Below are positions 586 through 39,861 of a stretch of 41,004 nt of DNA, piece after piece. Made by a program: the position numbers and the translations under genes. The notes beneath the pieces are model-generated. The model did no database searches. It was not told where the DNA came from and saw only the letters and a list, made by a program, of their open reading frames with translations. The DNA is from Pseudomonadota bacterium (GTDB taxonomy: Bacteria; Pseudomonadota; Gammaproteobacteria; Burkholderiales; Thiobacillaceae). The stretch spans positions 1-41,004 of the forward strand of contig JAJZSR010000005.1 of NCBI GenBank assembly GCA_021849595.1, given 5' to 3'. Each line of letters begins with the position of its first letter. Position 1 is the first letter of the stretch.

Positions 586-2073
586 TCAACGCGGGTGCAA
601 CCACTTGGGCAGAAGTTCATAGGGGTTGGTCTTGACTGACAGGTCGACAGTGACGCCGTGTTTTTGCAGGCAAGTCTGCAGCCGGCCTGACTTCAGGCTG
701 TCGAACACGTCGGTGCAGCCGCCTGCGAAGTCGCCCCCGATGAAGATCTGCGGCAAGGTGACCGATCCGGTCCGGCGCTTGAGAACCTCGAACATCTTGC
801 TGCCGCGATCGCCTGGCTGGTAGGCGACCGAATCGAGATCGATCGAGGTGTAGGCGATGCCGTACTTTGAGAACACCTTGCGGACCGCGTTGCAGAACTC
901 GCACCACTCGTAGGCAAACATGACGACAGGCTGGTCCGGGTCGCACAACATGGCATCGACCTCGCTGGCGGCCGCTTCGTCCAAGGCATCCGCCGCTGCC
1001 ACCGACGGCGGTGCGGCCGCCGGGGCGACATCGAAGCGGAATCCCGGCGTCGACCGCGAGAGCTCGAGCTCCTCCTCGGTCATCTCGATGGCAATGTCCT
1101 CGAACAACGGTGTGGAAAGGTAGCGTTCGCCGGTATCGGGCAGCATGCACAGGATGTTGGCGCCCGGCAGCGCAGCCTGGGCGACCCGCAGCGCGCCCGA
1201 AAACGTGGCACCCGCCGAGATGCCGACGAAGATGCCTTCCTGCCGCGCCAGTTCCCTGGCGCAACGCAGCGCGTCATTGCCGTCAATCGGCAGAAAGCCG
1301 TCAATGCGGCTGGCTGCCGTGACCTGCTCCACGAGCCGGGAAATGAAATCCGGGGCCCATCCCTGCATCAGGTGCGGCCGGAACCGGGAATGGCTCGCGC
1401 TGGGCGAGCCGTCGCCGTGCCTGGCCTGCGCGATGCCGCTGGCCAGCATGGCCGCATTGTCCGGCTCGCAGACGATGATCTGCGTATGCGGGCTCTTTTC
1501 CTTCAGCACCCGCGATACGCCGTTCAGCGTGCCGCCGGTGCCGAAGCCGGTGACCCAGTAGTCGAGCGAGACATCGGCGAAGTCCTCGAGGATCTCCACG
1601 GCGGTGGTGCGGGCGTGGATCTCTGCATTGGCCGGGTTCTCGAACTGGCGCGGCTGCCACCAGCCATGCGCGCGGGCCAGCTCCTCGGCCTTCGCCACCA
1701 TCCCCGTGCCCTTCTGGGCGGCCGGCGTCAGTACGACCCTGGCGCCGAGAAATCGCATCAGCTTGCGCCGCTCGACGCTGAAGTTCTCTGCCATGGTGAC
1801 GACCAGCGGATAGCCCTTCTGGGCGCAGACCATGGCGAGGCCGATGCCGGTGTTGCCGCTAGTGGCTTCGACGATGGTCTGTCCGGGCTTGAGTTCACCG
1901 CGGCGTTCGGCGTCCTCGATCACCCCCAGGGCCAGCCGGTCCTTCACCGAACCCATCGGGTTGAAGGACTCCAATTTGACAAAGAGATTGACGCCCCTGG
2001 GGCCCAGCTTGTTGATGCGAATCACCGGCGTGTGGCCGATGGTGCCCAGAATGCTATCGTATCGCCTGCCCAT
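586..2073 (-). CDS. Cysteine synthase-glutaredoxin fusion protein
   Basis: The 495-aa product has a fold-type II PLP domain of the CysK/CysM family (about residues 1-340) joined by an Ala-rich linker to a glutaredoxin-like domain (about 380-475). Visible motifs are the PLP lysine in NPMGSVKDR (Lys44), the phosphate/substrate loop TSGNTGIG (71-78), the glycine loop GFGTGGT, and the C-terminal PDTGERYLST typical of O-acetylserine sulfhydrylases. The second domain has a dithiol CEFC at 391-394 and a TLPQIFI cis-Pro segment. The family makes cysteine (or S-sulfocysteine) from O-acetylserine; the fused glutaredoxin would supply reduction, for example of S-sulfocysteine or a mixed disulfide, which is inference. 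GGGAG lies 8 nt before the ATG. It is the last gene of a six-gene minus-strand cluster, 63 bp after the chlorite dismutase-like gene. Confidence 0.9.
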   Translation of the reverse strand: MGRRYDSILGTIGHTPVIRINKLGPRGVNLFVKLESFNPMGSVKDRLALGVIEDAERRGELKPGQTIVEATSGNTGIGLAMVCAQKGYPLVVTMAENFSVERRKLMRFLGARVVLTPAAQKGTGMVAKAEELARAHGWWQPRQFENPANAEIHARTTAVEILEDFADVSLDYWVTGFGTGGTLNGVSRVLKEKSPHTQIIVCEPDNAAMLASGIAQARHGDGSPSASHSRFRPHLMQGWAPDFISRLVEQVTAASRIDGFLPIDGNDALRCARELARQEGIFVGISAGATFSGALRVAQAALPGANILCMLPDTGERYLSTPLFEDIAIEMTEEELELSRSTPGFRFDVAPAAAPPSVAAADALDEAAASEVDAMLCDPDQPVVMFAYEWCEFCNAVRKVFSKYGIAYTSIDLDSVAYQPGDRGSKMFEVLKRRTGSVTLPQIFIGGDFAGGCTDVFDSLKSGRLQTCLQKHGVTVDLSVKTNPYELLPKWLHPR

Positions 2074-2136: not shown

Positions 2137-2703
2137 TCAGCCACCCTCACGCACGAGCCGGATGTCGACTTCCCGTTCAACATACTTCCACTCCTCAGTT
2201 GCACGCAACTCGGCAAGCAGCTTGTTGAACGCCACCTCATCAGCCGGCGCGTACTCAAACCAAGTGAGGAAATCGAACGGCTCGTTCTCCGCCAGGTCGC
2301 GGCAATGATGCAGTCTGCGCGCCAACTCGGGAAAATGCTTGAGGCCGATGCTGGCGTGCCGGGACTGCGCTTCGAAAACATGCTGCCGCTCGGCTTGCGT
2401 GAGCGCCCACCAGGCGGCATTCTTGCGAATGGGGATCAGTGCCGCGAACGACGCCTCCGGACGACCGAGCGCCAGTTGCCGGGCAACGATCTGGCGTTTG
2501 TCCTCCCTGGAGACGGCGTACCGCTCATTGCTGGTGATGCCACGCAGCACCCAGGCCGCATCTGAGCCAACCGGAACTTCCGGCCCGGAGACGATGCCAA
2601 GCCTGCCTGCTGATGGCAGCGGCGCTCCGGTGATCGCCTCGATGCTGGCGACGCGCCAGGAGCCCGTGTCACCACCGATGAAGCAAAACAATCGTGTAGG
2701 CAT
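2137..2703 (-). CDS. cld: Chlorite dismutase family protein (short type)
   Basis: The 188-aa product matches the short (dimeric, Nitrobacter-type) chlorite dismutases: a WWALTQAERQ segment, then RRLHHCRDL, PFDFLTWFEYAP and EEWKYVEREVDIRL. Counting from an upstream ATG at 2733, the heme-ligand His is residue 126 and the distal Arg is residue 139. This His-Arg spacing of 13 is the one known for chlorite-degrading enzymes, and the Arg is missing in HemQ-type coproheme decarboxylases. The family converts chlorite to chloride and O2. I chose the internal ATG at 2703 because AAAGGGG lies 6-7 nt upstream and the length then matches the family; the ATG at 2733 would add 10 residues. No signal peptide is visible, so it is probably cytoplasmic. 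No perchlorate or chlorate reductase is nearby, which suggests detoxification rather than respiration. Confidence 0.85.
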   Translation of the reverse strand: MPTRLFCFIGGDTGSWRVASIEAITGAPLPSAGRLGIVSGPEVPVGSDAAWVLRGITSNERYAVSREDKRQIVARQLALGRPEASFAALIPIRKNAAWWALTQAERQHVFEAQSRHASIGLKHFPELARRLHHCRDLAENEPFDFLTWFEYAPADEVAFNKLLAELRATEEWKYVEREVDIRLVREGG

Positions 2704-2769
2704 ATCGATCCCCTTTGATTTATATCCTTGCATGCCACACCCCGCGCCAGGCTTCCGGGCCCGCGCCGT

Positions 2770-2997
2770 TTACATACCGACCACCTGGCCGGTATAGCCT
2801 GCCGCCCGCACTGTCTCCAGCAAGGCAGCCGTGGTGGTTTTTTCCGTGTTATAGGTGATCAAAAGAAGATGCGCCTTGTCTGCGTTAAACCCTGGCGATA
2901 CGACGCCGTCGATCTTACGCATGGTATCTTCGAGAGAGGTGCGCGCGTCTTCACTCAGGGATTCATTGATGTGAATCATGACATCGCTAATGTTCAT
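2770..2997 (-). CDS. Small HMA-like (ferredoxin-fold) protein without the CxxC motif
   Basis: This 75-aa protein has the beta-alpha-beta-beta-alpha-beta pattern of heavy-metal-associated domains: a first strand MIHINESL, a helix around DARTSLEDTMRKIDGV, strands around FNADKAHLLLITYN, a helix TTAALLETVRAAGY, and a closing strand QVVGM. The M/LxCxxC metal site of copper and mercury chaperones is absent; there is no cysteine at all. A classical metal chaperone role is therefore unlikely, and it may bind a different ligand or a protein partner. AAGGAG lies 8 nt before the ATG. It is 66 bp upstream of the cld-like gene and 51 bp downstream of the DUF6632-like gene, consistent with one transcript. 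Confidence 0.75.
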   Translation of the reverse strand: MNISDVMIHINESLSEDARTSLEDTMRKIDGVVSPGFNADKAHLLLITYNTEKTTTAALLETVRAAGYTGQVVGM

Positions 2998-3048
2998 TTT
3001 ATGGCTCCTTAATGTGAGGGGTTGAACGACAAGTTATGCCGCCGATGG

Positions 3049-3438
3049 TTATTTCTTTGCGGTGCTCCGCCTTGGGGTCAGCACTGCCAACACGACCGCC
3101 ACGGCAATCAAGGCCGCGACGTCCCCAAAGAGATGCCCGATGTGATGGGGATTGGCGATAGACTGAATCCCCATGATTCCGCCGTGCACGATGCTCGACC
3201 AGACCGTGAACCAGATTAGGCTTCGGTGCGCCAGCGGATCGCGCGAGGCGATCATGAGGAACACGCCGAGCGTGGCATAGATACCCAGGATCATCTCGAG
3301 ATATTCCGAGCGACCTCCTTCATGCCACACCCAGCCCGACGGCCAGATGATGCCAAGCGGCCATATGCCGAACGTGAAAATCAGCCCCACGAGCAGCAAG
3401 GCAATGCGTAGATATTTGATGCGATCAGCTTCAGTCAT
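3049..3438 (-). CDS. DUF6632-like small membrane protein
   Basis: The 129-aa product has four hydrophobic segments: about residues 9-30, 46-64, 73-92 and 104-120. Conserved-looking stretches between them include IWPSGW, ILGIYATLGVFLMIASRDPLAHRSLIWFTVWSSIVHGG and a GHLFGDV segment. The pattern is that of a family I recall as DUF6632, whose function is unknown. The ends (MTEADR... and ...RRSTAKK) are hydrophilic and the C-terminus is basic. It is an inner membrane protein by prediction. AGGAG precedes the ATG at normal spacing. Its place inside the cluster suggests co-expression with the cupin and chlorite dismutase-like genes; no catalytic motif is visible. Confidence 0.8.
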   Translation of the reverse strand: MTEADRIKYLRIALLLVGLIFTFGIWPLGIIWPSGWVWHEGGRSEYLEMILGIYATLGVFLMIASRDPLAHRSLIWFTVWSSIVHGGIMGIQSIANPHHIGHLFGDVAALIAVAVVLAVLTPRRSTAKK

Positions 3439-3530
3439 GATGTTCTCCTTTGTTACTCACATAATTTCTAGGCTTGCATGCAATTCACCGCGATGCGCCT
3501 TCGAGGCGACCTCCAACCCAGGCACCGGGC

Positions 3531-3917
3531 TTAACTTTTCACCTTCGCTATCATGTGGTTGATGACATGGCTGTGTTCGCGCTGCGGGCTGAACATGATG
3601 ATCTCCGCGTCTGCATCGACCTTTACGTTGTGCCCGGGCGGCCAGTAAAACAGATCATTCGTGTTGACCGTTTCCTGCGTGCCGTCCGCGCTGGTCGCGG
3701 TGAGTTGCCCACGTAAGACGAAACCCCAGTGAGGGCACTGGCACAAATTGCCTTCCAGTCCCTGGAACAGCGGGGTGGTATCTACGTCTTTGGAGAGACT
3801 GAAGTACTCGCAGCCGATCTTGCCCAATCCAGTTGCGTCGCCGAAATCCGTTCGCTGACGGATCACGGCCCCTGGTATCTCCATCTTGACGTCTATGTCC
3901 TCTTTGGCTATTCGCAT
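3531..3917 (-). CDS. Cupin domain protein, 128 aa
   Basis: The product is a single small cupin barrel. The core run CQCPHWGFVLRGQLTATSADG (first cupin motif) is followed by a TNDLFYWPPGHNVKVDADAEIIMFSP segment (second motif), with several His residues (HSHVINHM) near the C-terminus. The usual HxH...E ligand set is altered to CPHWGFVLRGQ, so the metal site, if any, is non-standard. The reading frame stays open upstream to 4202, but the ATG at 3917 has AGGAG at proper spacing, gives family-like length, and avoids overlap with the methyltransferase gene. The chemical role is unknown. It lies 101 bp downstream of the methyltransferase gene and 92 bp upstream of the DUF6632-like gene. Confidence 0.8.
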   Translation of the reverse strand: MRIAKEDIDVKMEIPGAVIRQRTDFGDATGLGKIGCEYFSLSKDVDTTPLFQGLEGNLCQCPHWGFVLRGQLTATSADGTQETVNTNDLFYWPPGHNVKVDADAEIIMFSPQREHSHVINHMIAKVKS

Positions 3918-4018
3918 GATCGTTACTCCTATGCGCAATGGATGTTTTTTGTTGGCTGGCCTGCCTATTGCAGCATCCATTTCATGCAATGGGTGCCCAA
4001 CGCCGATTCGATGGTCGA

Positions 4019-4852
4019 TTACCTGCACCTGATGACGACCTCGATGTATTCGCTCGGGGCCACCAGCGTGCCGTCGGTCGCGCGATTGAACCGCTCGGCC
4101 AGGGCGATCAGGTCGGCGGCGAGCGCTTCCTGCTGCGCGCCGTCGAGTGCCCCGAACGCCTTGTGCATCGGGCCGTAGAAGGTGCGAAAGACTTCCAGCC
4201 AATGGGCTGCGCTGCGGTAGCGGAACACGAAGTGTTTGCGCTCGATCGCCATCGAGTCGAGCCGCTCGCCGAGCAGCTCGCGCAGCCGTGCTTCGGTGCC
4301 CCAGAGCGCGGGTGACTTCACGCCGGCCGCCGGGGGCAGGTAGTGGCCTATCAGCTTGAACAGTTCACCGACAAAACTGGTCGGCGTCCAGTTTGCGAGG
4401 CCGATCCGGCCGCCGGGTTTGCAGACGCGCGCCATTTCCGCGGCGGCCTTGTCCTGGTCGGGTGTGAACATAACGCCGAAGGTGGACATCACCACATCGA
4501 AACTATGGCCGGTGTACGGCAGGTTTTCGGCGTCCGCCTGCTCGAATTGCACCGGCAGTCCTTCGGCGCTTGCCCGGGCGCGCCCCCGTTCGAGCAGCGT
4601 CGGAACGTAGTCGGTCGAGACGACGTCGCACCAGCGCCGTGAGGCGGCCAGTGTAGCATTGCCGTTACCGGCGGCGACGTCGAGCACGCGCTCGCCGGCA
4701 CGCAGGTCGAGCGCTTCGCAAAGCGACTCGCCGACGATCTGCAGAGTGGTGCCGACCACGGCGTAGTCGCCGGACGACCAGGCCAGGTGCTGCTTGGTCT
4801 TTACGGCCGCCAGGTCAACGGCGGGTGTGAAAGTGGAAACGGCTGCTGACAT
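4019..4852 (-). CDS. Class I SAM-dependent methyltransferase
   Basis: This 277-aa Rossmann-fold methyltransferase of the Methyltransf_11/UbiE type has motif I VLDVAAGNGNATL (about 57-69), a motif II-like STDYVPTLLERGR, motif post-II QADAENLPY, motif IV SFDVVMSTFGVMF, and KPGGRIGLANWTP. The C-terminal third (about 160-277) resembles the lid of small-molecule methyltransferases. The substrate cannot be read from sequence. AAGGAG sits 7 nt before the ATG. It is the first gene of the minus-strand cluster and lies back to back with the large HTH-ATPase regulator gene, with 229 bp of shared control region between them. Confidence 0.88.
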   Translation of the reverse strand: MSAAVSTFTPAVDLAAVKTKQHLAWSSGDYAVVGTTLQIVGESLCEALDLRAGERVLDVAAGNGNATLAASRRWCDVVSTDYVPTLLERGRARASAEGLPVQFEQADAENLPYTGHSFDVVMSTFGVMFTPDQDKAAAEMARVCKPGGRIGLANWTPTSFVGELFKLIGHYLPPAAGVKSPALWGTEARLRELLGERLDSMAIERKHFVFRYRSAAHWLEVFRTFYGPMHKAFGALDGAQQEALAADLIALAERFNRATDGTLVAPSEYIEVVIRCR

Positions 4853-5081
4853 GGCTGGGCTCCTTGATGAGGTGGATTAGGACTTGTCAGGGTTGGCAAC
4901 GCGGTCCTGTTGCGCGTCGTCGGATCCGGGTCTGGTGTGCCGATCGACAGGCCTATTTCACTCCAAACGAGTCTGTGTGGGGTCCCGCAAAGCGGGACAA
5001 AAAGCGGGACAAAATCGCCGACGAAACTGCTGGACATAAGCTACACTTAAGTACGCCGGATGCACTAGGGACTTAATCGGC
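4853..5081. promoter_or_regulatory. Divergent control region with palindrome and tandem GCGGGAC sites
   Basis: This 229-bp gap separates the methyltransferase-led cluster (minus) from the regulator gene (plus). It holds a perfect 7-bp inverted repeat, GTCCCGC-AAA-GCGGGAC (4982-4998), and a second direct copy of GCGGGACAAA (4992-5001 and 5004-5013, 12-bp period). TACACT at 5042-5047 is a possible -10 for the regulator gene, with no good -35. The site arrangement is what one expects for a regulator-binding operator between divergent units. Which protein binds it is unknown; the adjacent HTH protein is the obvious candidate. Confidence 0.5.
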
Positions 5082-8000
5082 ATGGAGGACAGGACGGATT
5101 CGTTTGGCTACTGGTTGCGGCGGCGGCGTAAAGCGCTGGATCTCACCCAGGAGGCGCTTGCCCGACGGGTCTGCTGCTCGGGTTTCACAATCAGAAAAAT
5201 CGAGGCCGACGAGCGCCGCCCCTCGCGGCGGCTCGCTGAACGGCTCACCGCGTCGCTCGCCATCCCCGAGGAGGAGCGGCGCGATTTCCTCGACGCGGCA
5301 CGCGCGCTCCACACCACGAACCGTCTTCAACTGGACCCGACGCCAGCCGGCACCGACGCGCGCGCCACTAGGCCCACCGCAGCGATCCGTTCCCCTCTCC
5401 AATCCGCCACTGGCACTGCGAGCGATGCCACACCCTTCGTCGGCCGAGGTAACGAGTACGGCCTGCTCATCGGACTCGTCGCGCGGCTCACCGCCGGCAC
5501 CGGCTATACCATCCTGATCGAAGGCGAGCCGGGGATCGGCAAGAGCCGGTTGCTGCGCGAGGTTGCGCGCTACGCCCGGGCCCAGGACTTGCCGACGCTG
5601 GCGACGAACTGCTACGAGATCGAGCGCGCGATGCCGTACCAGCCCGTCATCGACCTCGTCACGCGCGCGCTCGACCGCGTACCGGCCGCGGCGTTGCACA
5701 GCTTGCCGCCCGTGTCGCTCGCCGAGCTCGCCGCCCTGGTCCCCGAGGTCGGCGAGCGTTGTCCGAACCTGCCGTGGCTGTCGAACGATTTTCCAGAGGC
5801 GCGACAGGCGCGCCTGACCCGTGCAGTGGACCAACTCCTCGACGCATCGCGCGGCGGCCGTCCGGCCATTCTCATGGTGGACGACATCCAGTGGGCCGAC
5901 GACGCCAGTGCGCAAGTGCTGCATTATCTTGCCCGCCACGCCGCCCAGCGCCCGGTGCTGACGATCTACGCCTATCGCGACGAGGAAGTTGACAGCGATG
6001 AGCGGCTCGCACAGCGGGTCGAGAGCTTGCGCCGCGACACCGATGCGCGCCGGATGCCACTCGCCCGACTGGGTTTTGCGGACACCGAGACACTTGTAGC
6101 GGCGCTCGCCGATGCGAACCTCGGGGCACCCGGCTTGGCCGAGCGCCTGCATCGCGAAACCGAAGGCAACCCGTTCTTCCTGGTCTCGATCCTGCAGGCG
6201 CTGAGCGAGGGAGAGACGCAACTGGAACCGCGCCCGAGCGGCGCACCGGGGTTGCTCCCTGATGCCTTGCGTGCTGCCGTGCGCGTGCGTCTCGCGCACG
6301 TGCCCAAAGCGATGCGGCCAATGCTCGAAACCGCCGCGGTCCTCGGCCGGCGCTTCGACTTCGACACCCTTCTCGACGTGACAGGCGAGCCCGAGGTGTC
6401 GCTGCTTGACGCGCTGGAGATGTTTGTCAAGCGCCGCTTGCTGCACGAGGAACCCGAGGGCGGCGTATACGACTTCAGCCATGACAAGCTTCGCGAGGTG
6501 GTTTATCGTGACATCGGCGGGGCGCGGCGCAGACTGCTGCATCAGTCGGTGGCTGAGAGCCTGGAACGCCGCAACGAATACGCAACGCACGAACGCGACG
6601 CCCAGCTGGCGGAGCACTACGAGCGCGCGCACGTCTGGTCGAAGGCGCTCCACTACCTGGTCCTCGCCGGACAACATTCGCAGACGCTGTTCGCGATGCG
6701 CGATGCCTTGCACTGGCTGGATCGCGCGGTCGCGCTGTCCGAGTCGCACCCGGAGTCACTGGACGAGCGGCAACGCCTCGCGATCTACAAGCGGCGCGGG
6801 GAGGCACGCGCACAGGCCGGACAGACGCAAGGCGCGGTCGCCGACATTCGCCTCGTCATCGCCACGTTGCGCGCTGGCGGCGAACGCGAAAAGACGCGCG
6901 ACGCGCTGATCCATCTGGGCATGGCCTATCGGCGCGCCGATCAATATGAAGAGGCGACCGCCTGCCTCAACGAAGCGCTGGCGGAATCCCTTGCCATGAG
7001 CGACGAGCGCCACGCCGCCGATACCCTCTATCACCTGGGGACGGTCGCGTGGAGCACCGGGCAGAACGATCAGGCGATTCGATTTCACCAACAGGCGGTC
7101 GAAATCTGTGAGCGCACCGCTTGCACCGATCTGGTCGCGGTGCAGGCCTGGCACGGCCGCGGCGAGGCGCACTTTGCGAACGCGGAGCCCGCAGCGGCCA
7201 TCGTGTGCTACACGCGCTCGATCGAACTGGCCCGCCGCATAGGCGACAAGAGCTACGAGTCCGAGAACCTGATGATGGTCGGGCACGCCTGTCTCGGCAC
7301 CAAGGGGCTCGGCGACTACCCGCGCGCTATGGCAAACTTCGAGGCGGCGCTCGACATCGCGCGTGCCGCGGACTTGCAGTGGCATTTTGGACCCACGCTG
7401 CTCGGGCTCGACCATGCCCGGGCGTGCACGGGCAGCTACGGCGAGGCCTGGGCCGGCATGCAAAAGACCCTGCACTGGCTTGAGAGTCTCAGGCAGGTGC
7501 GCTATCAGTTCATCGCCTACGATTGCATCGGCCACCTCCTGCTTGACCTCGGCTTGAATGAGCTGGCGGTTGAACAACTGGAACGCGGATTCGCGCTCGG
7601 GCGCGACGCCGGCATCCTGTACTGGCGCGCCGCGATCGAAACACACCTTGCCGTCGCGCGGTCGCGGCTCGGGCAGAAGAACGTCGCGCCGCCGCTACAG
7701 GCCGCGCTCGAACAAACGCGCTGCACTGCGGAGCGTTACATGATGGTCCGGTGTCTCGACGGATTGGCGGAGATTGCGCTCGCGGCGGGCGACACGCGCC
7801 GCTGCCGAGTGTACGGGGACGAACTGCTCGCGATCGCCGAGCCGAACGGCCTGCGCGAACTCGAGGCGGTCGCGCGACGCTGGCGCGGCGAGGCTTTGCT
7901 GGCAGAGAAGAGTTATGTAGAGGCGCAGGCCGACCTGTTCCGCGCCGCGGCGCTGGCGGAGGCTATCGGTCGCGTGCGCCTGCAGATGGATGTGGAGACC

Positions 8001-8138
8001 GCGCTGGCACGTCTATTTAGGTCGCAGGGTCAGAACGACGCCGCGCAGCGCCACGGCGCCACGGCGCGCATAATTGCGGAGGCCATCGGGAAGAGCTTGG
8101 AGTCCTCCGGGCTCGATGTCCGGCTCCGCATGACCTGA
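5082..8138 (+). CDS. XRE HTH + STAND/AAA ATPase + TPR regulator
   Basis: This is a 1018-aa one-polypeptide signalling regulator. Residues 8-75 form an XRE-type helix-turn-helix (LTQEALARRVCCSGFTIRKIE). An FVGR motif (119-122) opens a STAND/AAA ATPase domain with Walker A GEPGIGKS (148-155) and Walker B ILMVDDIQWAD (263-273). From about residue 480 to the end are TPR-like helical repeats (for example LIHLGMAYRRADQYEEATACL and TLYHLGTVAWSTGQNDQAIRF). The architecture resembles AfsR/MalT/guanylate-cyclase-associated regulators but with the DNA-binding domain at the N-terminus. Such proteins usually bind an inducer through the TPR part and need ATP to activate transcription. The divergent position suggests it controls the 586-4852 cluster. 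No strong ribosome site precedes the ATG. Confidence 0.88.
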   Translation: MEDRTDSFGYWLRRRRKALDLTQEALARRVCCSGFTIRKIEADERRPSRRLAERLTASLAIPEEERRDFLDAARALHTTNRLQLDPTPAGTDARATRPTAAIRSPLQSATGTASDATPFVGRGNEYGLLIGLVARLTAGTGYTILIEGEPGIGKSRLLREVARYARAQDLPTLATNCYEIERAMPYQPVIDLVTRALDRVPAAALHSLPPVSLAELAALVPEVGERCPNLPWLSNDFPEARQARLTRAVDQLLDASRGGRPAILMVDDIQWADDASAQVLHYLARHAAQRPVLTIYAYRDEEVDSDERLAQRVESLRRDTDARRMPLARLGFADTETLVAALADANLGAPGLAERLHRETEGNPFFLVSILQALSEGETQLEPRPSGAPGLLPDALRAAVRVRLAHVPKAMRPMLETAAVLGRRFDFDTLLDVTGEPEVSLLDALEMFVKRRLLHEEPEGGVYDFSHDKLREVVYRDIGGARRRLLHQSVAESLERRNEYATHERDAQLAEHYERAHVWSKALHYLVLAGQHSQTLFAMRDALHWLDRAVALSESHPESLDERQRLAIYKRRGEARAQAGQTQGAVADIRLVIATLRAGGEREKTRDALIHLGMAYRRADQYEEATACLNEALAESLAMSDERHAADTLYHLGTVAWSTGQNDQAIRFHQQAVEICERTACTDLVAVQAWHGRGEAHFANAEPAAAIVCYTRSIELARRIGDKSYESENLMMVGHACLGTKGLGDYPRAMANFEAALDIARAADLQWHFGPTLLGLDHARACTGSYGEAWAGMQKTLHWLESLRQVRYQFIAYDCIGHLLLDLGLNELAVEQLERGFALGRDAGILYWRAAIETHLAVARSRLGQKNVAPPLQAALEQTRCTAERYMMVRCLDGLAEIALAAGDTRRCRVYGDELLAIAEPNGLRELEAVARRWRGEALLAEKSYVEAQADLFRAAALAEAIGRVRLQMDVETALARLFRSQGQNDAAQRHGATARIIAEAIGKSLESSGLDVRLRMT

Positions 8139-8221
8139 CAGCTGGTGTCTCTGTGTTGCTGATTCTCATCGGCCTTTTGGGTGCTCGGTTTCTATATTAC
8201 GTTATGAAAAAGGAGACCGGT

Positions 8222-8308
8222 ATGACGGAAATGAAGCAGATGACTGGACGCCGAGTGTTAGCTGCCCGCTTGCGCTACCTGAACAGACGATCGGCGAGCG
8301 GGCCATGA
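8222..8308 (+). CDS. Possible 28-aa small protein
   Basis: ATG at 8222 has AGGAG 6 nt upstream (8211-8215), which is the only reason to list it. The product is short and basic (MTEMKQMTGRRVLAARLRYL... ending at TGA 8306-8308). An in-frame ATG at 8204 would give 34 residues. No homologue is recognised. It could be a real small protein, a leader peptide, or the surviving 5' end of a deleted gene next to the repeat border. Confidence 0.22.
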   Translation: MTEMKQMTGRRVLAARLRYLNRRSASGP

Positions 8309-8557
8309 CTGGCCGCTTGGGGTCGACACCTGCCCGATGGGCCGCAAGGGCTAAACGGCAGGTATGAGGCGGCTCCTGCCTGCGGTCAACAATAAAGCAG
8401 ACCCTCGGCCTCCCGGCTGGATGTCGGGTGCCATAAATCGCCCACCCTATGAGCTATGATGAAGCGCGTGAATTGGAACGCGAAGTCGTGCTAGTTTTTC
8501 CGAGGCCACATATGTTTGGGGCTGGCTTGACTGGCGTCACTATTGCTCTTCCACCGT

Positions 8558-8740
8558 TGTTTACGACTTTATTGTCGGAGGTGCGGCCTAACCAAGGCAA
8601 AAAATCGGTTTTGTTTACGACTTTAGACGAAACAAGCCTCCAAACAGGTCCTTCGAGATGCGCACCAATGCTAGGGGCTTGTTTACGACTTTAATAGCAA
8701 GGAACAGGGGATTTGCTCCGAGCCGTCAAAGGCGTAAACA
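8558..8740. repeat. Right repeat array: three 14-bp units plus a degenerate inverted unit
   Basis: TGTTTACGACTTTA is present exactly at 8558-8571, 8612-8625 and 8680-8693, in inverse orientation to the copies at 7-20 and 27-40. The last one extends to a perfect 21-bp inverted match (8676-8696) with 4-24. A degenerate opposite copy, CAAAGGCGTAAACA (12 of 14), lies at 8727-8740, so 8558-8740 has TGT...ACA ends like a 183-bp miniature element. No flanking 5-bp duplication is seen. It could be transposon-end binding sites or a MITE. Confidence 0.65.
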
Positions 8741-8914
8741 GATTACCCTAAATTCCTCACCACGAAGACACAAAAACACGGAAAAATACGATAAATCATT
8801 AGGTTGCAATCACTTAACCACTCAACCTTCGCCCAGACCAACCGTGGAAACGAAGCACTTTCTCGTTCAGAAGTGCCCAATATTCCTCAAAGGCCGGAGG
8901 CCTCCTTCGGCTGG

Positions 8915-9811
8915 CTAGGGCTGGGGGCCTTCGATCGGGCGGCCGCGGTAGGGATAATTCTTCAGGCGAGTGTCCGAGCGTTGGTGCGGGTTTGCGACGG
9001 CCTTGCCGGGGTCGATCCAGTCTGCCCATTTGAAGTCCTTGATGACCTTGGCCTGGTAGCTCTCCTCCAGCGGGTGCTCAAGGATATCGTTGACGTGCAC
9101 CCATTGCTGGTAGCGCATGAGGTCGACCTGGTAGGGCGTCGGGTTGCCGCCGGCCTTCTTCACCACCGCCTTCAGCGCCTCCACGTCCTTCATCGTGATT
9201 TTCGGCAGCCAGGTGATCTTGCCCGGCAGCATCACCGGCTCGCCGGGAATGTTGTTGATGCCTTCCTTCCAGGTCGCCAGCACTGCCACCTTGGTATCGT
9301 CCCGGTAGAGCAGGATGGCGTGGCTGTAGCGCTTGTCCTTGAAGAAACCGAGGTTGCCGTATTGCAGGCGCGCGCCGGTCAGGTAGGCCACCGCATCCGA
9401 CCAGCAGGGCGAGTCGCCGGTGATGCCCCACAGCACGCTGCGGTCGATGATGCCGTCGGGAAACAGGATCTTGAATGCTACCCAGGCCGCGTTGGCGGCG
9501 TGTGTCGTGCCCTCGCAGTCGTGGCCGTGAAAACGCACCAGGTCTTTCAGCGTGACCGGATAGGTGTAGTGGTAGTAGCGGCCCTGCGTGCCCCGCGTGG
9601 CCAGCATCTCGAATACCGGTGCGTACGGCTTGGCGACCATGGCGGCATACCAGGTGGGGTTGCGGTCGGGGGCTTCCACGCCGGTCTCGATGAAGATCGT
9701 CTCGCCTTGCTTGTAGGTGGGGGGTGCGGCGACGACGCTGTTGGCCAGAAGCAAGGCCAGCCCGCCAGCTGCCAGGATCCTCGGGAGGAATTTGCGCATG
9801 GGTTTTTTCAT
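8915..9811 (-). CDS. Exported FmdE-domain protein
   Basis: The 298-aa product starts with a Sec signal peptide (basic MKKPMRKFLPR, a hydrophobic stretch GGLALLLANSVVA, cleavage near AAP). The central part (about 90-180) matches the FmdE domain: FHGHDCEGTTHAANAAW, then DSPCWSDAVAYLTGARLQYGNL and DKRYSHAILLY. These correspond to the family's HGHxC metal site, CxxDAIQ segment and TGxTxGKGNL. FmdE was named from formylmethanofuran dehydrogenase operons, but most bacterial members are metal-binding proteins of unknown function. The usual Pro after the HGHxC Cys is replaced by Glu. The signal peptide places it in the periplasm. It is a single gene, divergent from the SrkA-type kinase gene with 207 bp between them. 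Confidence 0.82.
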   Translation of the reverse strand: MKKPMRKFLPRILAAGGLALLLANSVVAAPPTYKQGETIFIETGVEAPDRNPTWYAAMVAKPYAPVFEMLATRGTQGRYYHYTYPVTLKDLVRFHGHDCEGTTHAANAAWVAFKILFPDGIIDRSVLWGITGDSPCWSDAVAYLTGARLQYGNLGFFKDKRYSHAILLYRDDTKVAVLATWKEGINNIPGEPVMLPGKITWLPKITMKDVEALKAVVKKAGGNPTPYQVDLMRYQQWVHVNDILEHPLEESYQAKVIKDFKWADWIDPGKAVANPHQRSDTRLKNYPYRGRPIEGPQP

Positions 9812-17583: not shown

Positions 17584-17611
17584 AGTATAGTCAGCCGGCG
17601 GCGCCTGGCAG
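17584..17611 (-). promoter_or_regulatory. Candidate sigma70 promoter for the SGNH-patatin pair
   Basis: Read on the minus strand, CTGCCA (-35, 17606-17611, 4 of 6) is followed by a 16-bp spacer and TATACT (-10, 17584-17589, 5 of 6). It overlaps the 3' end of the MFS gene and lies 45 bp upstream of the GTG start of the SGNH hydrolase. It is recognised by pattern only. Confidence 0.35.
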
Positions 17612-18817
17612 GGGGCTGACACCGCGCTGCCGGTGCAAATCCGGCAGGAATACCGCCAGCAGGCCCATGAGCGGCAGAAAGGAACACAGTTTGTAGACCG
17701 CGGCGATGCCCCACAGATCGGCCAACTGGCCCAATACGGCCGCCCCTATGCCGGCCAGACCGAAAGCCAGGCCGAAGAACAATCCGGAGATCGTCCCCAC
17801 CTTGCCCGGGATCAGTTCCTGGGCGTACACCACAATGGCAGGAAAGGCAGATGCCAGGAGGAAGCCGATGATCATGGTCAGCAGAACGGAAGCCCCCAAG
17901 CCCACGTAAGGCAGCGCCAGGGTAAAAGGCGCGACCCCCAGGATGGACACCCAAATGACCTGTTTGCGTCCGATGCGATCGCCGATCGGCCCGCCCAGCA
18001 AAGTGCCGGCGGCCACCGCAAACAAAAAATAAAACAAATGGTATTGCGCCTGCTGGGTATCGATGCCGTATCGGTGCATGAGATAGAAGATCAGATAGCT
18101 GCTGATGCTGGCGAGATAGAAAAACTTGGAAAAGATCAAAGCCAGGAGAACGGCCAGTGTTGCCGCCACATGCCGGCGCGGCAGAGGCAGGGCCTGTGCC
18201 TGGGCGGCCTTTCCCGGCCGGCGATGCTGGCGGCGGTACCACAGACCCACGCCGGCGAGCACCGCCATGGCAACGAGCGCCACAACGGAAAACGCGGCGA
18301 CGCTGTGTTGGCCGTGCGGCAGGACGATCCAGGCAGCCAACAGGGGGCCGGCGGCGGTGCCAGCATTGCCACCGACCTGGAATATCGATTGCGCCAGGCC
18401 ATGCTTGCCCCCCGAGGCCATGCGTGCCACGCGCGAGGACTCGGGATGGAATATGGACGAACCCATACCCACCAGCGCGGCGGCCGCCAGCAAGGCAGGA
18501 AAGGTGGCGGCATAGCCGAGCAGAAGCAGCCCGAGAAAGGTACAGCCCATGCCCAAGGCCAGGGAAAAAGGCTGAGGACGGCGATCGGTGTAATACCCCA
18601 CCACGGGCTGCAGCAGCGATGCGGTGAGCTGGAAAGTCAAAGTGATCAGACCGATCTGGGCAAAATTGAGATGAAACTGCGACTTGAAAAGCGGGTAAAT
18701 GGCCAACATCAGCGACTGCATGGTGTCGTTGAGAAAATGCGAAAAGCTGATGGCGCCCAAAACCTTGAATGCCGTGGCGGCGGGGGCGCCGGCGGGAATG
18801 GCTGAACGAGTTTCCAT
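17591..18817 (-). CDS. fsr: MFS transporter, Fsr (fosmidomycin resistance) type
   Basis: This 408-aa major facilitator has about 12 hydrophobic segments and the N-terminal signature of E. coli Fsr and its relatives: SFSHFLNDTMQSLMLAIYP, then GLITLTFQLTASLLQP and the motif A-like GYYTDRRPQPFSL. A GSSIFHPESSRVARMASGGKHGLAQSIFQVGGN segment is also typical of this subfamily. A second-half motif A, GGPIGDRIGRKQVIW, is present. Substrates of Fsr-like exporters include fosmidomycin; the native substrate is unknown. No Shine-Dalgarno is visible before the ATG. It is divergent from ovoA with 150 bp between. Confidence 0.88.
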   Translation of the reverse strand: METRSAIPAGAPAATAFKVLGAISFSHFLNDTMQSLMLAIYPLFKSQFHLNFAQIGLITLTFQLTASLLQPVVGYYTDRRPQPFSLALGMGCTFLGLLLLGYAATFPALLAAAALVGMGSSIFHPESSRVARMASGGKHGLAQSIFQVGGNAGTAAGPLLAAWIVLPHGQHSVAAFSVVALVAMAVLAGVGLWYRRQHRRPGKAAQAQALPLPRRHVAATLAVLLALIFSKFFYLASISSYLIFYLMHRYGIDTQQAQYHLFYFLFAVAAGTLLGGPIGDRIGRKQVIWVSILGVAPFTLALPYVGLGASVLLTMIIGFLLASAFPAIVVYAQELIPGKVGTISGLFFGLAFGLAGIGAAVLGQLADLWGIAAVYKLCSFLPLMGLLAVFLPDLHRQRGVSPLPGAAG

Positions 18818-18886: not shown

Positions 18887-18914
18887 CTGGCAACAGATGG
18901 AAACTGGCTATATT
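18887..18914 (+). promoter_or_regulatory. Candidate sigma70 promoter for ovoA-ovoB
   Basis: CTGGCA (18887-18892, 4 of 6 for -35), a 16-bp spacer, and TATATT (18909-18914, 5 of 6 for -10) lie about 53 bp before the first possible ATG of ovoA. Pattern only; no operator is evident. Confidence 0.35.
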
Positions 18915-18967: not shown

Positions 18968-21112
18968 ATGCCGCGTCGACTCAACCGACCAAGCGCCATG
19001 TCCAAGCCTTTGCTGCAACGCACGCCTTTGTTGACCGGCGCCGATCCCGAGGCCAAGCGCCGGGAAATTCGCGCCTATTTCCACGCCACGCTGGACGCCT
19101 ACGAGCGGCTGTTCGATGTACTCGCCGACGACGAGGCGTACTACGTCAAACCCATCCCGCTACGCCATCCGCTCATTTTTTATTACGGCCACACTGCCGT
19201 CTTTTTCGTCAACAAGCTGATCCTGGCGGGCTTGCTGGAGCAGCGCATCGACCCGCGCCTCGAATCCCTGCTGGCGGTCGGCGTGGACGAGATGAGTTGG
19301 GACGACCTCAACGACACCCATTACGACTGGCCCACGGTGGAGGCGGTGCGCGCTTACCGCCTGCGCATGCGCTCGGTGGTCGACGACCTCATCGGCAAGC
19401 TCCCGCTCACGCTGCCCATCCAGTGGGAAAGCCCCTGGTGGCCGATCCTGATGGGCATAGAGCATGAGCGCATACATCTGGAAACCTCCTCCGTCCTCAT
19501 CCGACAACACCAACTCAAGCATGTGCGCCCGCATCCGGCCTGGGCACCCTGTCCCCTGCGCGGCGCTGCACCTGAGAACGCCCTGGTCGAGGTTCCCGCC
19601 GGCCGCGTGGCGCTGGGCAAGGGCAGCTCCGACTTGCCGCACTATGGCTGGGACAACGAGTATGGCCGGCACAATGCCGACGTCGCGTCTTTCCTGGCCT
19701 CACGGCAATTGGTGTCCAACGCGGAATTCCTGGCTTTCGTCGAGGCCGGAGGCTACGCCGACGAGAGATACTGGGACGAGGAGGGACAGGCTTGGCGCCG
19801 CTACGCCGGTGCCGTGCACCCGAGCTTCTGGGTGAGCGACGGCGCCTCCTGGCGCCTGCGCCTCATGCTCGAAGAAGTGGCCATGCCCTGGGACTGGCCG
19901 GCGGAGGTCAACTGCCACGAGGCGCGCGCCTACTGCGCTTGGCAGGCGCGCGAGCTGGGCCGGCCGGTGCGCCTGCCGAGCGAGGACGAATGGCACCGTC
20001 TGCACGAGGTGTCGGGCCTGAGCGGCGTGCCTCCCGATCGGCCGGCCAACGCCAGCCTGCACCTGGACCATTGGGCATCTCCCTGCCCCGTGACCACGTT
20101 CCGGCAGGGCGATTTCTACGACGTGGTCGGCAATGTCTGGCAATGGACCGACACGCCCATCTATCCCTTCGAAGGATTCCGCGTGCATGCGCTTTACGAC
20201 GACTTCAGCACGCCCACGTTCGACGGGCGCCACAATCTCATGCTGGGCGGCTCCTGGATTTCCTGCGGCAACGAGAGCCTGCCCGGCGCGCGCTACGCTT
20301 TCCGCCGGCACTTTTTCCAGCATGCCGGATTCCGCTATGTCGTCGGCGAGCGGCCGGTCGCAGCGCCCGCGTCCAGGTATGAAACGGACCAACTGCTGTC
20401 GGAATATGCTGAGTTTCATTACGGTGACGAGTATTTCGGCGTTCCCAACTTTCCGCGCGCCCTGGCCGAACACGCCATCCGTGCCATGGGTGACCGGCCT
20501 TGCCGGCGAGCCTTGGACTTGGGCTGCGCGGCAGGCCGTGCCACTTTCGAACTTGCACGCCGCTTCGACGCAGTGACGGGCATCGATTTTTCTGCGCGTT
20601 TCATCGGCCTGGGCGTGCAAATGGCCGCCCAGGGCGTATTGCGCTACACCCTCAGCGATGAAGGGGAGCTCGTCAGCTATCATGAGCGCCGTCTTGCCGA
20701 CCTGGGGCTGGAGGCAGTGCGCGGCGAAGTGGGTTTCTTTCAGGGCGATGCGTGCAACCTCAAACCAGTCTTTGCCAGCTATGATCTGATCCTGGCCGCC
20801 AACCTCATCGATCGCTTGTACAGCCCGAGGAAATTCCTCGCCGGCGTGCACGAAAGACTCACTCCGGGCGGGCTGCTGGTGATCGCCTCGCCCTATACCT
20901 GGCTGGCGGAGCACACAGCGCGCGAGGAATGGCTGGGCGGCTACAAGAAAGACGGCGAGAGCTACACCACGCTCGATGGCCTCAAAGCGGCGCTCGGCAC
21001 GCACTTCCGACCAATCGGGGAACCGATGGATATGCCCTTCGTCATCCGCGAGACACGGCGCAAGTTCCAGCACACGCTTTCCGAAGTGACGGTATGGGAG
21101 CGGCGCGCATGA
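18968..21112 (+). CDS. ovoA: OvoA: 5-histidylcysteine sulfoxide synthase / 4-mercaptohistidine N-methyltransferase
   Basis: This 714-aa three-domain enzyme is the first step of ovothiol synthesis: non-heme iron, O2-dependent coupling of cysteine to histidine, and later N-methylation of the mercaptohistidine. Residues about 30-180 form the DinB-like domain with the iron ligands His75 (FYYGHTAVFF) and the HxxxH pair His166/His170 (GIEHERIHLETS). Residues about 200-460 are the formylglycine-generating-enzyme-like domain (VNCHEARAYCAW, VRLPSEDEWHRL, GNVWQWTDTP, LGGSWISCGNE). The C-terminal 230 residues are a SAM methyltransferase (ALDLGCAAGRATFELARRF). EgtB of the ergothioneine pathway lacks this third domain, so OvoA is favoured. 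The start is uncertain: ATG 18968 or ATG 18998 (MSKPLLQRTPLL), neither with a clear ribosome site. It overlaps ovoB by 4 bp. Confidence 0.93.
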   Translation: MPRRLNRPSAMSKPLLQRTPLLTGADPEAKRREIRAYFHATLDAYERLFDVLADDEAYYVKPIPLRHPLIFYYGHTAVFFVNKLILAGLLEQRIDPRLESLLAVGVDEMSWDDLNDTHYDWPTVEAVRAYRLRMRSVVDDLIGKLPLTLPIQWESPWWPILMGIEHERIHLETSSVLIRQHQLKHVRPHPAWAPCPLRGAAPENALVEVPAGRVALGKGSSDLPHYGWDNEYGRHNADVASFLASRQLVSNAEFLAFVEAGGYADERYWDEEGQAWRRYAGAVHPSFWVSDGASWRLRLMLEEVAMPWDWPAEVNCHEARAYCAWQARELGRPVRLPSEDEWHRLHEVSGLSGVPPDRPANASLHLDHWASPCPVTTFRQGDFYDVVGNVWQWTDTPIYPFEGFRVHALYDDFSTPTFDGRHNLMLGGSWISCGNESLPGARYAFRRHFFQHAGFRYVVGERPVAAPASRYETDQLLSEYAEFHYGDEYFGVPNFPRALAEHAIRAMGDRPCRRALDLGCAAGRATFELARRFDAVTGIDFSARFIGLGVQMAAQGVLRYTLSDEGELVSYHERRLADLGLEAVRGEVGFFQGDACNLKPVFASYDLILAANLIDRLYSPRKFLAGVHERLTPGGLLVIASPYTWLAEHTAREEWLGGYKKDGESYTTLDGLKAALGTHFRPIGEPMDMPFVIRETRRKFQHTLSEVTVWERRA

Positions 21113-22269
21113 AACACGACTTCGACCGCATCATCGAACGCACCGGCACCCATGCGCTGAAATGGGTCGGCCGCGCACGCCAGTTCGGCACGGAGGACGT
21201 CCTGCCCCTATGGGTGGCGGACATGGATTTCGCCGCCGCGCCGGCCATCGTGCAGGCCCTGCAGGCGCGCGCCGCCCATCCCGTATACGGCTACACCAGC
21301 CGACCCGACAGCCTGTCCGAGGCGATTGCGCAATGGATGGAATCACGCCACGACTGGCAGATCGACCCGGACTGGGTGCTGTGGGCGCCCGGCGTAGTGC
21401 CTTCGCTGCATGCCGCTGTACTGGCTTTTTCCGCACCCGGCAACGGCGTCATCGTCCAGCCGCCTATCTATCCGCCCTTCTTTTCCGCCGTTACCACTAC
21501 GGGGCGACGGCTCGTGGAAAATCCGCTGGTCTATGACAACGGCAGCTACCGTTTGGATTTGGGGCATCTGGAGCAATGCGCCCGCGAGGCGCGCATGCTG
21601 CTGCTGTGCTCGCCCCACAACCCCACAGGGCGCGTGTGGTCCGAGGAGGAATTGCACAGCATTCTCGACATCGCACGACGCCACGGGCTGTCGGTGGTCT
21701 CTGACGAAATCCATCACGACCTGGTTTATCCGGGCCAACGCCACACACCGACGGCAAAGCTGGCCGCGGCGCACGAAGTCGTCACCCTGGCGGCGCCGAG
21801 CAAGACCTTCAACATCGCCGGCCTGGGCATCTCCGCCCTGATCGTGCCGAATGCGCAACAGCGCGCGGCGCTGGAGCAAAGCTTCGCGCAGTTGCACGTG
21901 TCCGCCAACAATCCTTTCAGCATCGCCGCGTGCGAAGCCGCTTATCGCCATGGCGGCGCCTGGCTGGACGATCTTCTGGCTTATCTGACCGAGACGCGCG
22001 ACGACGCGCTGGATTTCATCGCGCAGCGGCTGCCCCGCATCAAGGCGATCGCACCCCAGGGTACCTGTCTGCTGTGGCTCGACTGCAAGGCGATGAACAT
22101 GAGCGATGCCGCTCTGCAGGATTACTTCGTGCGGCGCGCCCGCGTAGGGTTGAGTCCGGGCGCCGCATTCGGTCAGGCGGGCAGTGGCTTCATGCGCCTC
22201 AATCTGGGGGCTCCGCGCGCCATTGTCCGAGAGGCGCTGGAACGCATCGAAGCGGCGCTAGCCGGCTGA
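21109..22269 (+). CDS. ovoB: PLP-dependent C-S lyase, probably OvoB
   Basis: The 386-aa aminotransferase fold-type I enzyme is of the MalY/PatB class (cystathionine beta-lyase-like). Visible features are LPLWVADMDF near the N-terminus, the CSPHNPTGRVW loop (Asn171), SDEIHHDLVYPG (Asp199, binding the pyridine N), and the PLP lysine in APSKTFNIAGL (Lys232). Its ATG overlaps the ovoA stop in ATGA, indicating translational coupling. In known ovothiol pathways a MalY-like lyase cleaves histidylcysteine sulfoxide to mercaptohistidine, pyruvate and ammonia, which is the step between the two OvoA activities. The position makes OvoB the best call; sequence alone cannot exclude a general cystathionine beta-lyase. 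Confidence 0.85.
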   Translation: MKHDFDRIIERTGTHALKWVGRARQFGTEDVLPLWVADMDFAAAPAIVQALQARAAHPVYGYTSRPDSLSEAIAQWMESRHDWQIDPDWVLWAPGVVPSLHAAVLAFSAPGNGVIVQPPIYPPFFSAVTTTGRRLVENPLVYDNGSYRLDLGHLEQCAREARMLLLCSPHNPTGRVWSEEELHSILDIARRHGLSVVSDEIHHDLVYPGQRHTPTAKLAAAHEVVTLAAPSKTFNIAGLGISALIVPNAQQRAALEQSFAQLHVSANNPFSIAACEAAYRHGGAWLDDLLAYLTETRDDALDFIAQRLPRIKAIAPQGTCLLWLDCKAMNMSDAALQDYFVRRARVGLSPGAAFGQAGSGFMRLNLGAPRAIVREALERIEAALAG

Positions 22270-38781: not shown

Positions 38782-39861
38782 TCAGCGTCCCCGGCGGCGC
38801 GCGATCAGCCCAATGAGGGCGAGGCCCGCCAACATCGTCGCGTAAGCGCCGGGCTCGGGCACGGCGGCGATCTGATTGGGATTGAAGCCTGCAATCTGCT
38901 CGCCGACATAATTCCCCACCCACTGGTTCAGTTGGTTGCCGACCGGGGTCTGTTCTGGCAACGGGTCTACCAAGCCCTCGCCGTCGAACCTGCCCAGATA
39001 TTTGTAGAACTCAAAGCGCACCACCAGCGCTTCGTCCCCGGGGTTCATGTTAACGGCCTTGGTAACTTCGTCGACCTTGCCCGGTTGCAGCACCTGCCAT
39101 TCGATTTCGGTTTCGGGCTTGTTGTTGAGGTCAGCGATGGCGGCAACGGCAAAGGGATTGTCGCCACCCATCAGTTCGTTCAGATCCACCTTGTTCGGCA
39201 GCGTTGTCTGCACGATTTTGACCCAGTAGGCATTGTCCTGGGGGAGGGCGGGATTCACGTTGACCGCCTGAATCGCGGCCACCACGGGCGGTGCGGGATT
39301 GACAGGCGTCGGCGGTGGCGGCGGCGTGAACGTGACCGACGGAATGGCCACCGCCGCCTGGGTCAGAACGCCGGGAGTAGCCGATTCAACCAGCCAGCTG
39401 TAGGTGGTCTTGGTCGGAGTACCGAGCGTGCTCACACCGAAGTGATCGCAGGGCACGGAGGGGTAGCCGACGTTGCCGAAACTCCAGCAGCTTTCGCCCG
39501 GCGTGTTGAACGTACCTGATGCCGTAGCCGCGCTCCAGGCGCCGGCGGAATACTGGGCCTGGTAGGTTATCTTGACGCCTATCACATGTCCGACACCGTC
39601 GCTCAGATCGCCAACCGTGGGAACGCCATACCGCTCAACATCGCCGGGCGAGGGTGTGCCGAAATCCCGGTTTAGGCCAAAGACGTCGATGACATCGCTC
39701 TTGCTGATGCCTTCGAGTTCGATTTCAAAGCCATGGGCGGTCGTGCCGGTATCGTTCACCGCATCAAAGTTGGCCAGCGATCCGAAAGTGGCCGTCGCGC
39801 CGGATATGCCCGGTGCGGCGCCCACGGCAATCGCCGCAGCGATCAAGACGGGTTTGAACAT
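38782..39861 (-). CDS. PEP-CTERM sorting domain protein
   Basis: This 359-aa exported protein has an N-terminal signal peptide (MFKPVLIAAAIAVGAAPGISGATA) and a C-terminal sorting signal: VPEPGAYATM, a hydrophobic helix LAGLALIGLI, and the basic end ARRRGR. Such proteins are processed by exosortase and usually go to the cell surface or exopolysaccharide matrix of biofilm-forming Gram-negative bacteria. The body is polar and Gly/Thr-rich, with a Pro-rich linker (TPPPPPTPVNPAPP) around residue 180; the function is unknown. GAGGGGG lies 5 nt before the ATG. No exosortase gene is in the window. It converges with the glycerate kinase gene, 48 bp away. Confidence 0.9.
   Translation of the reverse strand: MFKPVLIAAAIAVGAAPGISGATATFGSLANFDAVNDTGTTAHGFEIELEGISKSDVIDVFGLNRDFGTPSPGDVERYGVPTVGDLSDGVGHVIGVKITYQAQYSAGAWSAATASGTFNTPGESCWSFGNVGYPSVPCDHFGVSTLGTPTKTTYSWLVESATPGVLTQAAVAIPSVTFTPPPPPTPVNPAPPVVAAIQAVNVNPALPQDNAYWVKIVQTTLPNKVDLNELMGGDNPFAVAAIADLNNKPETEIEWQVLQPGKVDEVTKAVNMNPGDEALVVRFEFYKYLGRFDGEGLVDPLPEQTPVGNQLNQWVGNYVGEQIAGFNPNQIAAVPEPGAYATMLAGLALIGLIARRRGR

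Follow-up and report, generated by a model that had tools for sequence, protein, structure and literature searches.

An ovoA-ovoB gene pair predicted to encode the ovothiol A pathway in a draft bacterial genome

Ovothiol A is a sulfur-containing antioxidant built from histidine. The gene pair described here is of an ordinary, already described kind for its synthesis in bacteria. A three-step ovothiol pathway is laid out in excerpts from PMC12631010, PMC9103826 and PMC10903977, and excerpts from PMC9103826 also report that mutation of His170, His174 and Glu176 in the OvoA of Erwinia tasmaniensis lowered its activity 100-fold; the HX3HXE spacing of those residues is the same in the OvoA analysed here. 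The locus alters no current view, since both enzymes and their pathway have already been published (excerpts of PMC12631010) and PMC9103826 cites a survey covering OvoA and OvoB in Proteobacteria; what the locus contributes is one further bacterium predicted to have the ovothiol A pathway.

We analysed a stretch of 41,004 nucleotides (hereafter the window), in which positions 18968-22269 of the forward strand carry a gene for OvoA followed by one for a PatB-family PLP-dependent C-S lyase that fits OvoB. Both open reading frames lie where an earlier note on this DNA, made from the sequence alone, had placed an ovoA-ovoB pair, and the 4-bp overlap that it described is there as well: the ATG of ovoB overlaps the ovoA stop within the ATGA at 21109-21112. 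A 446-aa frame listed from 20929 is merely a 5' extension of the ovoB frame. For ovoA, the ATG at 18998 is probably a better candidate for the start than the one at 18968, because several relatives begin at window residue 11; among the N-termini inspected (25 of the 81 aligned sequences), those of loci L008, L012 and L017 read MS(K/Q)xLFQRTP and align to that residue. OvoA residues are numbered here from the 18968 start. A promoter scan gave a single weak promoter-like site (18887-18914, against 0.5 expected), and a terminator scan gave three terminator-like sites against 2.3 expected.

Table 1. Features of the ovoA-ovoB locus and of other genes in the window
Feature	Position	Strand	Size, evidence or remark
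Cysteine synthase-glutaredoxin fusion	586-2073	-	495 aa; PALP residues 9-313, glutaredoxin residues 383-449
Protein with helix-turn-helix, AAA_16 ATPase and TPR repeats	5082-8138	+	1018 aa; weakly TOMM kinase/cyclase fusion-like
MFS transporter, divergent from ovoA	17591-18817	-	Beside ovoA in G000, G003 and G004
ovoA, longest ORF	18968-21112	+	714 aa
ovoA, probable start	18998..21112	+	704 aa; start by alignment with relatives
His75 codon (GHTAVF), first predicted iron ligand	19190..19192	+	Invariant, 81/81
HX3HXE motif (HERIHLE, residues 166-172), two predicted iron-ligand His and Glu	19463..19483	+	Alignment
Tyr410 codon (LYDDF), predicted active-site Tyr counterpart	20195..20197	+	Invariant, 81/81
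OvoA C-terminal region, TIGR04345 residues 471-712	20378..21109	+	TIGR04345; motif I DLGCAAGR
ovoB, PatB-family PLP-dependent C-S lyase	21109..22269	+	386 aa; ATG at 21109; TIGR04350, PDB 6qp3, co-occurrence with ovoA
ORF with C-terminal PEP-CTERM sorting motif	38782-39861	-	359 aa

The first gene product exceeded the cut-offs of both curated NCBIfam models for OvoA (TIGR04344 ovoA_Nterm, 675.7 bits, cut-off 400; TIGR04345 ovoA_Cterm, 337.7 bits, cut-off 170). Pfam found DinB_2, FGE-sulfatase and methyltransferase domains in that order, which are the three domains that the earlier note had assigned to it. Among solved structures, the OvoA in PDB 8khq matched with 919 bits across window residues 15-712, and the OvoM methyltransferase in PDB 9bxl matched the C-terminal part with 248.9 bits. 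We aligned the window sequence with 80 named relatives and found His75, His166, His170 and Glu172 to be the same in all 81 sequences, so that the claimed three-His iron site is present, with each histidine a predicted ligand; His75 we take, by homology, to be the first of them. Also invariant in the 81 sequences were Tyr410, presumably the counterpart of Tyr417 in Erwinia tasmaniensis OvoA judging by numbering and position, and the three positions checked (Asp517, Gly519 and Gly523) in methyltransferase motif I. The description of the host as a betaproteobacterium fits the best OvoA relatives, which come from Sulfuricella, Dechloromonas and Nitrosomonas, but gammaproteobacteria are also in that list.

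The downstream lyase scored 529.1 bits against the PatB C-S lyase model TIGR04350 (cut-off 340) and 372 bits against the PatB structure PDB 6qp3. Its Lys232 is invariant in 45 of 45 sequences (the window and 44 relatives), and the SKTFN context makes this residue the putative PLP lysine. No OvoB-specific model was among the best 25 of 65 NCBIfam matches, and the protein is assigned as a putative OvoB by its PatB subfamily together with the genomic context. The proposal that this PLP lyase catalyses the middle step is upheld as a predicted function by the PatB match, Lys232 and the pairing with ovoA.

The pairing was examined at 80 named loci with ovoA, which are the best-matching of at least 554 confirmed relatives, with flanks of up to 6 kb, some of them short. 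An OvoB homologue lay within the flank at 44 of these loci; at 43 of the 44 the start of its frame (called mechanically) falls in a range from 495 bp upstream to 278 bp downstream of the ovoA stop, and at the other it is about 3 kb away. At the remaining 36 loci, some with short flanks, there was no OvoB homologue in the flank, and adjacency of ovoA and ovoB is therefore not obligatory. Several Dechloromonas and Azonexus are among these 36. We considered an alternative lyase at the ovoB-less loci, and clustering of neighbouring ORFs gave no evident shared replacement: apart from ovoA and ovoB, none of the 25 largest clusters occurred in more than 8 loci, and ten neighbouring ORFs, picked by length and judged by eye on their first 60 residues, included nothing lyase-like. 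The clustering is crude, as it uses the longest non-overlapping frames, some of which are antisense to real genes; the representative ORF of the cluster richest in ovoB-less loci (six) runs antisense to ovoA.

Our survey of the host's family covered 117 genomes. The ovoA gene scored over the cut-off in 24, all of which encode the OvoB lyase (E <= 1e-60), directly downstream of ovoA and on the same strand in 22. In the other two, G007 and G032, it lies on a different contig from ovoA, and the lyase gene of G032 is interrupted by one internal stop. The OvoA frame match in G033 breaks off at window residue 556. A wider count took two more genomes as ovoA-bearing, namely G004, where the gene is split between two contig ends (372 and 281 bits), and G024 (174 bits, over only 114 model positions), and it excluded the remaining matches to the ovoA model in the family (at most 148 bits) as other proteins with the same domain. 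By this count the lyase is encoded in 26 of 26 ovoA-bearing genomes and in 7 of 91 ovoA-less ones (Fisher p ~6e-20, a value that overstates the evidence because the family genomes are related). Altogether this is fairly strong genomic support for OvoB as the partner of OvoA in this family; the two genes, the families they belong to, their invariant residues, the 4-bp overlap and the recurring pairing are directly established. The seven genomes with an OvoB-like lyase and no ovoA over the cut-off are G005, G012, G019, G020, G022, G025 and G029. Four of them (G012, G019, G020 and G025) are 96-100% complete, which suggests either that ovoA has been lost or that the lyase acts on a different substrate.

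We are highly confident that the locus is a standard bacterial ovothiol A operon. The complete pathway, already predicted from the gene pair in the earlier note, is well supported as a prediction by the curated models, the catalytic residues, the solved homologue and the co-occurrence; each reaction, and ovothiol A as the product, we infer from homology. With iron and O2, OvoA would join L-cysteine to C5 of L-histidine to form 5-histidylcysteine sulfoxide, and OvoB, using PLP, would cleave the C-S bond to release 5-thiohistidine, pyruvate and ammonia. OvoA as a whole is assigned as a 5-histidylcysteine sulfoxide synthase that carries a predicted 5-thiohistidine N-methyltransferase at its C terminus. 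It is quite unlikely that the downstream gene instead encodes a general PatB/MalY lyase for cystathionine or cysteine conjugates that lies there by chance, the middle step being carried out by another enzyme. The PatB model places the protein at subfamily level only, excerpts of PMC12631010 term OvoB a broad-specificity lyase, the gene is absent from the flank at 36 of the 80 ovoA loci, and since 7 of the 91 ovoA-less family genomes carry a similar lyase, such lyases may have other substrates. However, the gene overlaps ovoA by 4 bp, its relatives accompany ovoA over the cut-off in 24 of 24 family genomes (adjacent in 22), and nothing else in the own genome resembles it closely, the next best match reaching 29% identity. 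The likelihood that ergothioneine or some other 2-thioimidazole, and not ovothiol, is the product of the pair is next to negligible. Among solved structures related to the N-terminal half, those of EgtB-IV (8vig, 354 bits) rank next after OvoA, and OvoA is able to give a C2 product from hercynine according to excerpts of PMC9103826, but the EgtB model (TIGR03440, 154.4 bits, cut-off 360) and the SenA model (NF041186, 160.7 bits, cut-off 420) both remain at less than half their cut-offs, while the fused C-terminal ovothiol methyltransferase exceeds its own. Nor did egtD match in the own genome, which is weak evidence because just one of 14 control genomes gave a match, and that one below the cut-off.

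Ovothiol A, as the predicted product, would most likely work alongside glutathione and not as its replacement. A genome in which ovothiol had taken over as the main thiol might look like ours in one respect, as neither gshA (TIGR02049) nor gshB (TIGR01380) found a match in this 91%-complete draft or in the 80%-complete congener G003; we nevertheless regard such a replacement as extremely unlikely. These two genomes are the only exceptions among the 26 counted as ovoA-bearing, the other 24 matching both genes, and in the family as a whole 109 of the 117 genomes gave a match to gshA and 108 to gshB. In the congener G004, which is 99% complete, gshA lies adjacent to gshB, and ovoA is present as well, split over two contig ends. 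Contig C39 of our draft aligns to positions 2396 to 9392 of the G004 region L126 and ends exactly there, as at an assembly gap; the gshA match, at 9463, lies 71 bases further on. The far side of the gap is not a clean contig end, since the next own match, in contig C193, starts at L126 position 17749 and only from C193 base 1760. Because C39 stops 71 bases short of gshA and G004 has ovoA, gshA and gshB together, the simplest reading is that the missing genes fall in an assembly gap and that ovoA and the glutathione genes coexist; given the same two observations, we set aside ovothiol in place of glutathione as unlikely.

The earlier note also linked the pair to further thiol genes in the window. 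As a functional cluster this link is unsupported, because none of these genes is a regular neighbour in the 80 named loci. A gamma-glutamyltransferase gene lies about 5 kb from ovoA in the window and beside ovoA in one congener, G004, and 17 kb separate the pair from the cysteine synthase-glutaredoxin gene. G004 keeps the MFS transporter, the gamma-glutamyltransferase and an APH kinase flanking ovoA on one side, with an aldo-keto reductase, PurT and ClsB beyond ovoB; on the 5.6-kb contig of G003, MFS and PurT were seen near ovoA. Among the 80 named loci, not all of which have full 6-kb flanks, the APH kinase was a neighbour in two, the aldo-keto reductase and PurT in one each, and the gamma-glutamyltransferase and the MFS transporter in none. 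We therefore rejected a functional cluster with any of these five, which are neighbours of ovoA within the genus only. The MFS transporter is very unlikely to move ovothiol across the membrane, an idea that comes from its genus-level synteny and would, if true, make it an ovothiol transporter; no relative of it neighbours ovoA in the 80 other named loci. The cysteine synthase-glutaredoxin gene is itself rare and patchy in the family: at E <= 1e-120 it was found in 3 of 117 genomes (our own, G076 and G115), the G076 copy being a full-length fusion with 86% identity and the G115 match covering residues 1-310.

Set beside the closest described enzymes, the window OvoA showed no substantive difference from the solved OvoA in 8khq (5-histidylcysteine sulfoxide synthase / 5-thiohistidine N-methyltransferase), with which it shares both curated halves, the three domains, the HX3HXE motif, the active-site Tyr and an alignment over residues 15-712. 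With EgtB and SenA, the ergothioneine and selenoneine synthases, it has a homologous sulfoxide-synthase core, but it scores far under the cut-offs for both and has an ovothiol methyltransferase domain. The lyase is assigned by subfamily and context, with cleavage of 5-histidylcysteine sulfoxide as its predicted reaction, and it has in common with OvoB, the PLP C-S lyase of the PatB/MalY family, its membership of the PatB family, the putative PLP Lys and the place directly after ovoA.
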